Shown here piece by piece: positions 15,787 to 25,741 of a DNA stretch of 39,978 nt. The stretch comes from an uncultured cyanobacterium. GTDB taxonomy: Bacteria; Cyanobacteriota; Cyanobacteriia; Thermostichales; Thermostichaceae. Numbering within the stretch: the stretch's first letter is position 1; each line of letters starts with the position of its first letter. The DNA lies in the NCBI GenBank assembly GCA_937944885.1, contig CALFBB010000050.1, positions 1 through 39,978 on the forward strand, read 5' to 3'. Below the pieces are notes generated by a model. It had not been told where the DNA came from, made no database searches, and saw nothing but the letters and a program-made list of their open reading frames with translations. The position numbers and the translations under genes were made by a program.

Positions 15787-15852
15787 TTCAGTCAGCAAGC
15801 CAATCTGTCTGCTAAAATCACAAAGCTGACTTTTTGGCTAGGTCACACTTTT

Positions 15853-15937
15853 GGAGAGATGGCCGAGTGGTCGAAGGCGCAGCACTGGAAATGCTGTGTG
15901 GGGCAACTCACCGTGGGTTCGAATCCCACTCTCTCCG
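15853..15937 (+). tRNA. tRNA-Ser(GGA)
   Basis: A class II tRNA of 85 bases. Acceptor stem GGAGAGA (15853-15859) pairs with TCTCTCC (15930-15936), discriminator G at 15937. The anticodon loop CTGGAAA gives anticodon GGA for UCC/UCU serine codons. It has a long variable arm and a T-arm with GGTTCGAATCC. No CCA is encoded. A -10-like TAAAAT is at 15813-15818, a suitable distance upstream. Confidence 0.97.
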
Positions 15938-16090
15938 TTCAAGCTAACTGAGTTGCCGCAACTCACCGTGGGTCAGGCCATCCGGCCCGCTGACGCGAAC
16001 GAATCCCACTCTCTCCGTTCAAGCTAACTGAGTTGCCGCAACTCACCGTGGGTCAGGCCATCCGGTGCGAACAAATCCTAATTCTCTGAC
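15921..16090 (+). repeat. 80-bp tandem repeat containing tRNA-Ser 3' end fragments
   Basis: A 65-base segment at 15921-15985, beginning with the last 17 bases of tRNA-Ser and running through TTCAAGCTAACTGAG into GGTCAGGCCATCCGG, recurs at 16001-16065, period 80. A third, eroded start is at about 16067-16090 (GCGAACAAATCC against GCGAACGAATCC). Each unit also repeats GCAACTCACCGTGGGT from the tRNA variable/T-arm, interrupted by about 27 bases before GAATCCCAC. Each contains a TGAGTTG/CAACTCA hairpin. No intact second tRNA is formed. Confidence 0.85.
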
Positions 16091-16198
16091 CTAAAGCAAG
16101 GATCTGATTCAACTCCATGGGAGAGAATTTTCTCCCTTATCGTGTAAACCGGTGAAGCCTGCTCTAGGCTGGATCCCGGATGTGACTGTGAGTGCCTC

Positions 16199-24334: not shown

Positions 24335-25741
24335 ATGAACGCCAAAACCATACACCCTTCAGGCTACCCCTGGTGGGCGGGCAATGCTCGATTTGTTGAC
24401 CTCTCCAATACTTTTATTGTGGCGCATGTGGCCCAAGCAGCCCTGATCATGGCCTGGGCGGGGGGGTTTACCTTGTTTGAACTGGCGAGGTTCTCACCTG
24501 ATTTGCCAATGTACGAGCAGGGGCTAATTTTGCTGCCTCATCTGGCTACATTGGGATGGGGAGTTGGTGCTGCCGGCCAAATTGTTGATACTTTCCCCTT
24601 CTTTGGGATTGGCTGTATTCATCTTGTGGCGGCTGGAGTACTAGCTTGGGGGGCTTATTTTCACCAAACAAAGCTGCCTGCCAACTTGGACATGGAGTTT
24701 GGCAAAGCTGCTAAGTTTCACTTTAGCTGGAATGATGCTAAGACGTTGGGTGTTATTTTGGGACATCACCTCTTGGTCTTGGGTTTGGCAGCCTTCCTGT
24801 TGGTAACCAAGGCAATGTTTTTCGGAGGTCTATACGATGCCACGATAGGTCAGGTGAGGCTGGTCAGTCAGCCCACGCTGGACTTTGCCACCCTTCTTGA
24901 CTATCGCACCCATCTTTTTGATGTCGATAACTTGGAAGACTTGGTGGGAGGGCATGTATATGTAGCAACTCTGCTTATTTTGGGAGGAATATGGCATATT
25001 GCGGTACCCCCCTTTGGTTGGGTTCAGGCTCGCTTTTTGTTCAATGCTGATGGGATTCTGAGTTACTCCCTGTTTGGAATTGCCCTGGCTGGTTTTGCTG
25101 CCTCTTACTACTGTGGATTCAACGATCTAGCTTATCCAGAGGTCTTTTATGGGCCAACTTTGCAGTTAAAGTCTGCTTTCACACCTTTCTATTTTGATCC
25201 CACCCAAACAGAGGCGGGGGCCTATTCATCCCGAGTCTGGTTGGCCAACGCACATTTCTATTTGGCTTTCTTTTTCCTACAGGGATCCCTGTGGCATTTT
25301 CAGCGAGCTATGGGCTTTGACTGGTCTAAGCTTTTTCAAGCTTGGCAGCAGGGTTGGCAGGAGGCGGGCTTATCTGAGTTTGTTTATCAGACAGTAGTGG
25401 AGATCCATTCCCGGGCTATGCCTGAGATTGACTATGAGCCGGCCTTTGCAACTCCGGCCTCTCTGGTTCCTAAGAAAGATGAAAACCATATCTATCAGCC
25501 ACCTCAGAGCAACGCCACCCCTTCTTTAACTCTACTGAATGGTGTGCGAAATACTCTTTATCAAGTTACCTATCATCTCAATCGCAACCTGTTTTATCAG
25601 GTGCCGACCTCTTCTTCTGATTTCAAGAAAACACCACTACAGGTGGAATATGGATCCCCAAAGGCAAAAATCAATTCTGGAGAATGCTTTCGGTCTTTGC
25701 CTACCACTATTTATGAACCCAGTAGGGCTCAGCTAAGCTAG
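24335..25741 (+). CDS. isiX: CP43-like chlorophyll-binding antenna protein IsiX, with C-terminal extension
   Basis: The 468-residue protein belongs to the IsiA/Pcb/CP43 family: about six membrane helices in residues 1-330 with helix histidines in [56 protein letters not shown] and [17 protein letters not shown] that can ligate chlorophyll. The loop before helix 6 is short, so it lacks the large CP43 loop and is an antenna, not a PSII core protein. Residues about 335-468 form a polar C-terminal extension not found in ordinary IsiA (about 340 residues). Its position after apcD4-apcB3 supports IsiX. ATG 24335 has AAGGA 7 bases upstream; GTG 24332 is adjacent. Confidence 0.85.

Follow-up and report, generated by a model that had tools for sequence, protein, structure and literature searches.

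Immediately downstream of an intact tRNA-Ser gene in an uncultured cyanobacterium of the Thermostichaceae, the 3' end of the gene is repeated in a short tandem array, which raises the question of how a tRNA tail came to be copied, interrupted, and left in place. Direct repetition of a tRNA 3' end is the usual att signature, and crossover commonly takes place in the T-loop region of tRNAs. The original prediction for this locus accordingly considered an integration hot spot, alongside repeated duplication of the tRNA 3' end. We analyzed the 39,978-nt stretch that contains the array (hereafter the window) and compared its genome (G000) with seven other genomes of the family (G001 to G007).

Anatomy of the tRNA-Ser tail copies

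The intact tRNA-Ser(GGA) gene, the source of the copied 3' part, lies at 15852..15938 (ARAGORN; Rfam RF00005) on the + strand, as do all other features of the array. The duplication of its 3' end with an 80-base period is real. Perfect 66-nt copies at 15920-15985 and 16000-16065 are spaced 80 nt apart, with a chance probability far too small to explain them, and GCAACTCACCGTGGGT occurs at 15903, 15958, and 16038. The array was not listed by Tandem Repeats Finder, and a scan of genome contigs for the unit itself gave no matches. Among 30 tRNA loci examined in this genome (of 38 matches), tail copies outside a second tRNA gene were found only here.

Downstream of the gene, spacer 1 (15937..15957; 21 nt from the base after CTCTCTCC) is followed by unit 1 (15958..16016), a 59-nt copy of the variable arm, T-arm, and acceptor strand that carries an insertion in its T-loop and has counterparts in G002 and G004. 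Spacer 2 (16017..16037), identical to spacer 1, leads to unit 2 (16038..16089), which matches unit 1 in its 5' half, has an insert 8 nt shorter, and is decayed in its T-arm/acceptor half. There are two downstream units, the second of which is no longer a full one. The interruption of about 27 bases that had been noted in each unit is located in the T-loop; it measures 26 nt in the first unit and 18 nt in the second. Unit 1 reads GCAACTCACCGTGGGT, 26 nt, CGAATCCCACTCTCTCC, and a single T joins the same two halves in the intact tRNA-Ser(GGA), so that 26 nt stand in place of one T-loop T (net +25), exactly between the GTGGG and CCCAC stem halves.

What the original prediction missed is that the interrupting DNA belongs to a family of dispersed mobile repeats. 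The 25-nt member within the T-loop copy (15975..15999), delimited by the family, its consensus, and 24-nt occupied and empty sites elsewhere, equals the 24-nt family unit plus an extra A in the loop of its first hairpin, and is flanked by GGGTT and CGAATCCC, with one base changed.

Two other hairpins are present at the locus. The TGAGTTG/CAACTCA hairpin, to which a possible role had been attributed, is a real palindrome (TGAGTTGC-C-GCAACTCA, 15949..15965) across the junction of spacer 1 and unit 1, with arms at 15949-15956 and 15958-15965, but it is missing from the relatives, in which the spacers differ, and we dropped it as a functional element. Further downstream, the predicted fold GGGAGAG-AATT-TTCTCCC (16119..16136) is a candidate transcript end with a weak T-run, to which the terminator scan gave no call. 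Elsewhere in the window are an IsrR antisense RNA (24728-24905, - strand; Rfam RF01419, 89 bits) and many GGATCC-rich words. In the available portions of the respective papers, two strains of Synechococcus A/B have GGGATCCC as their most frequent octamer (PMC4390886), and this group is also called Thermostichus (PMC11456837). Partly from these words, we tentatively place the window in that group.

The dispersed 24-nt repeat family and its past mobility

Copies of the repeat, searched with pattern GGNCTCCGNCCCGCTNNCGCGAACG at up to 2 mismatches, number 25 to 252 per genome in all six genomes of the genus, and 1 and 4 in the two remaining family members. In the class, 13 of 116 genomes have any match, with 0-4 copies in the other members searched. 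The reversed pattern, used as a control, gave 0-1 matches per genome and 0 in the six genus genomes, and a separate pattern for the family gave 25 to 245 copies. One exact member was also seen outside the genus, in OV696605.1 (Gloeomargaritales cyanobacterium VI4D9).

The consensus of 94 contexts is AAGGACTCCGTCCCGCTNACGCGAACGG; most of the first stem played no part in the selection of these contexts, which include related copies. Covariation is seen in the first hairpin (GGAC-TCC-GTCC), where 46 contexts have A-T at the third pair, 23 have C-G, and 12 have G-C. This pair is formed in 89% of the 94 versus 47% expected if the two positions were independent; the outermost and innermost pairs show little variation and contribute little. 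Directly after it comes the second hairpin, CGC-UNAC-GCG, whose stem was fixed by the search pattern, so that the covariation result covers the first hairpin alone. UNAC loops are able to mimic GNRA loops, according to the available portion of PMC5311481. Of 142 non-redundant sites, 88 have an A directly before the element, and the next three bases after it are CGG in 49 and CAG in 28. Tandem arrays at exact 24-nt steps occur in G004 (e.g., G004:C1:842764-842856). In G001, several copies are located just upstream of one recurring frame (at loci such as L058, L065, L090, L095, L096, and L100), which resembles a serine recombinase N terminus (KKDKRVVLYARVS-like).

Evidence of past mobility comes from the collinear stretches of G003 and G004, which comprise ~107 kb of alignments above 80% identity and hold 53 and 51 family sites, respectively. 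At three of the seven sites usable for comparison (those where the alignment reached the junction from either flank), one genome is occupied and the other empty, and the difference is exactly 24 nt. As for the remaining sites, one differs by 16, another, probably a chance match, differs by 6, and the last two entries represent a single shared site seen from either side. In two of the three 24-nt cases, the insertion adds 8 codons in frame to a long open frame; one of these frames looks like RecN by its motif. The exact 24-nt presence/absence at three sites therefore indicates that the family has been mobile; these sites give presence and absence, without the direction of change. The T-loop insertion fits the behavior of such a 24-nt mobile repeat. 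An indel listing over 58.8 kb aligned contained no tidy 24-nt insert, which we put down to gap placement, as other comparisons did show 24-nt inserts. Gapped BLAST between loci for clean empty sites gave four candidates, which were messy or coding and were not used.

Matches to Y1_Tnp are present in all six genomes, with RAYT and IS200/IS605 TnpA undistinguished among them, and one match adjoins repeat copies in G004. At that locus (G004:C1:544000-545100, L241), a Y1 transposase frame is followed by two family-like repeats of opposite orientation within ~50 nt, which we read as apparently lying inside the right-end hairpin of the element. One of the occupied 24-nt sites (case 1) sits in DNA that, on our reading, is similar to this locus.

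Because of the T-loop insertion and the copies at the end of an IS200-like gene, we asked whether the repeat prefers hairpin loops. An initial excess (at one window size, 126 of 186 sites vs. 820 of 1488 controls; weaker at three other sizes) was not significant with controls matched for the A|C[AG] flanking context, which is present at 70 of the 142 sites (for example, 52 of 70 vs. 406 of 648, p 0.066), and the preference was dropped; against matched controls, folding energy was slightly lower at repeat sites at two of four window sizes. A general link between the repeat and tRNAs was also rejected, with a tRNA within 1 kb at 2 of 67 usable sites, both of them tRNA-Ser units, and no other T-arm-like insertion was seen in the six genomes.

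SDR (small dispersed repeat) elements of cyanobacteria are said to be 21-27 nt long, with SDR4-6 forming hairpins with compensatory changes, and the host lineage here is presumably outside the Nostoc-type group in which they were described (reportedly by Elhai et al., 2008, Genome Res 18:1484, which PMC4390886 and PMC3116915 cite). The present family is similar in being a very short dispersed cyanobacterial repeat, at 24 nt within that length range, with a compensated hairpin, precise insertions, and past mobility. It differs in that its 24-nt unit has two adjacent hairpins, the comparison being with the description of SDRs rather than with the sequence of any named family. The repeat also resembles REP/REPIN elements, which the available portions of two papers describe as short palindromic non-coding repeats of many copies, possibly moved by a transposase in trans (PMC3116915; PMC3733652), in being short, palindromic, and abundant. 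Unlike REP/REPINs as portrayed there, it lacks a single terminal palindrome pair, occurs as single copies or tandem 24-nt arrays, and is in some cases inserted inside open frames; its consensus over the 94 contexts contains no GTAG or CGTC end tag. None of the papers listed in our literature searches dealt with this tRNA unit or with the repeat family in this genus.

Distribution of the unit and its probable origin

An insert-bearing tail copy follows the same tRNA, once each, in G002 and G004, making three carriers among the eight family genomes searched, the window's genome included. The distance between tRNA and unit is 21 nt in G000 and 20 nt in both G002 and G004, and the spacers themselves are unrelated, with a likeness no better, or barely better, than that of shuffled sequences. 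The three carrier species share a private variant of the insert: the 17-mer GGCCATCCGGCCCGCTG, which includes the extra A, has zero-mismatch matches in the eight family genomes only at the three tRNA units, which points to one origin of the units. In G003, the closest relative of G004, 78 bp are missing exactly between the CTCTCTCCG of the tRNA and that of the unit, and matching DNA continues on both sides.

The unit was not detected in G001, G005, G006, or G007, and overall it is absent from three of the six genus genomes. In comparison with shuffles, G001, G006, and G007 have nothing unit-like after the tRNA, G003 has a weak decayed match 218 nt further downstream (0 of 500 shuffles equal), and in G005 the tRNA is followed at ~43 nt by a family-like element but by no tail copy (6 of 500 shuffles equal); the upstream side of the G005 tRNA is unseen, as the contig ends 203 bases from the gene. 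G003 and G004 have in common a decayed, GGGTAAGGCCATCC-like stretch ~220-300 nt after tRNA-Ser that matches the central part of the unit. Downstream frames of G005 (L109, ~15.8-17.7 kb) contain repeated VPLRGKGRDQ and VDPYLFPARGRK words, perhaps a CRISPR-like array read as protein.

A one-gene tree groups G003, G004, and G001, apart from G000, G002, and G005, the latter group with modest support and with a different joining point of G000 in the protein and codon trees. Given this placement, the carriers lie on both sides of a deep split within the genus, unless the unit was exchanged. The upstream neighbor genes are common to G000 through G004, and the downstream genes differ among G000, G001, G002, and the G003/G004 pair; these differences look like ordinary rearrangement of chromosomal genes, as judged from the frames rather than family by family.

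Our preferred explanation, to which we assign a probability of about 0.72, is a duplication of the tRNA tail followed by invasion of an SDR-like repeat, with the resulting unit expanded here and lost elsewhere by recombination. In an ancestor of the genus, the 3' part of tRNA-Ser(GGA) would have been copied to a place ~20 nt past the intact gene, and a ~24-nt two-hairpin mobile repeat of SDR type would then have entered the T-loop of the copy, where its insertion would be harmless, the functional gene being left untouched. The identical tRNA tails would subsequently have recombined and so shifted the copy number, giving two units here and none in G003, and unit 1 may have been retained because it gives structure to the 3' trailer of the pre-tRNA. 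We infer the order of these events, the vertical descent of the unit, and that units were gained and lost by recombination. With no detectable unit in G001, G005, G006, and G007, descent needs several losses or some transfer, and the perfect 66 nt beside the decayed 3' half of unit 2 needs more than one recombination step. The earlier suggestion of repeated duplication was right, and the clean absence of the unit between two tRNA tails in G003 agrees with it.

The tail copies might instead be attL/attR-like remnants of a lost element of the kind that integrates at tRNA 3' ends, such as a tycheposon, a prophage, or an island, which we consider improbable. As in att sites, and as in an additive island of Methylophilaceae with repeats of a tRNA-Lys tail (going by the available portion of PMC10872708), direct repeats of a tRNA 3' end stand downstream of an intact gene, and the first tail copy could have arisen through integration. 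Unlike the tail repeats of these integrative elements, so far as that source describes them, those at this locus come without a recombinase or cargo, are very closely spaced, and are themselves interrupted. The 12 matches to the tyrosine recombinase family PF00589 in the six genus genomes include none near this tRNA, the DNA between the tails consists of 20-21-nt spacers in all three carriers, and the insert in the tail copy is accounted for by the dispersed family rather than by att DNA. BLAST against phages and plasmids gave no match, and pattern searches of viral contigs gave nothing relevant. Two viral contigs do contain the same 30-nt tail within a tRNA-Ser, adjoining what we read as an integrase-like frame; however, the gene is tRNA-Ser(TGA), which has the same tail, and the accompanying genes look alphaproteobacterial to us, so these matches were set aside as evidence for a hot spot. 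The predicted hot spot is thus not borne out by these searches.

Possible constraint on the unit and its possible role

Unit 1 has changed slowly. It is identical at 57 of 59 positions between G000 and G002, 55 of 59 between G000 and G004, and 53 of 59 between G002 and G004 (90-97%), and its 26-nt insert at 25, 23, and 22 of 26 in the same pairs. Identity at four-fold sites of the two upstream neighbor genes is 0.554 of 276 (G000-G002), 0.496 of 248 (G000-G004), and 0.500 of 256 (G002-G004). This suggests, from sequence comparison of only three carriers that were found by similarity (which favors conserved cases), that unit 1 may now be kept by selection, the least certain step of our reading. 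The tRNA-derived part is possibly held by conversion with the tRNA, and the case for selection therefore rests on the 26-nt insert.

Whatever their history, the units may be neutral, their likeness reflecting recent exchange of the tRNA region or conversion with the tRNA, and to this we give somewhat less than even odds. Unit 2 decays, G003 lives without the unit, and recombination between tails clearly occurs, all of which are as expected of neutral DNA. On the other hand, the insert is beyond the reach of tRNA conversion and yet is identical at 22-25 of 26 positions amid unrelated spacers and downstream DNA, and the carriers cross the deepest split of the genus (in the one-gene tree, with modest support). 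The unit could alternatively act as an RNA element in the 3' trailer of pre-tRNA-Ser, with a T-stem capped by two small hairpins that would take part in processing or quality control, or give rise to small RNA; this we view as a rather unlikely, tentative proposal. The three intact units, folded alone, are predicted to give this one shape, G004 keeps the T-stem pairing through a G-U pair, the distance to the tRNA is held at 20-21 nt, identity is far above that of four-fold sites, and a terminator-like hairpin lies beyond the unit in G004. Against it, the unit T-stem is absent from minimum-energy folds of long G002 and G004 transcripts, terminator scans found none in the window or in G002, and three of the six genus genomes manage without the unit. 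Because the T-stem is lost in long folds and the terminator is seen in G004 only, transcription across the unit is simply what we infer. The more specific proposal, that the hybrid T-arm in the trailer of tRNA-Ser(GGA) is selected, in this thermophilic and early-branching genus, as a predicted structured RNA controlling the maturation of that tRNA, is doubtful, a little more so than a role as an RNA element in general.

To our knowledge, how repeats of ~24 nt move is an open question, because they are too short for the usual transposase sites. The duplicated tRNA tail is a target of known sequence, so that both the insertion point and the ends of the element can be read, and close relatives offer exact 24-nt pairs of occupied and empty sites, in-frame 8-codon insertions included. 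Together with these pairs, the insertion into the T-loop copy makes the length, the ends, and the target of the element (often A|CGG or A|CAG) testable. The locus is a fossil record of the movement of a tiny repeat, possibly kept for a use; if the unit is indeed selected, a tiny piece of mobile DNA would have become part of a tRNA transcript.
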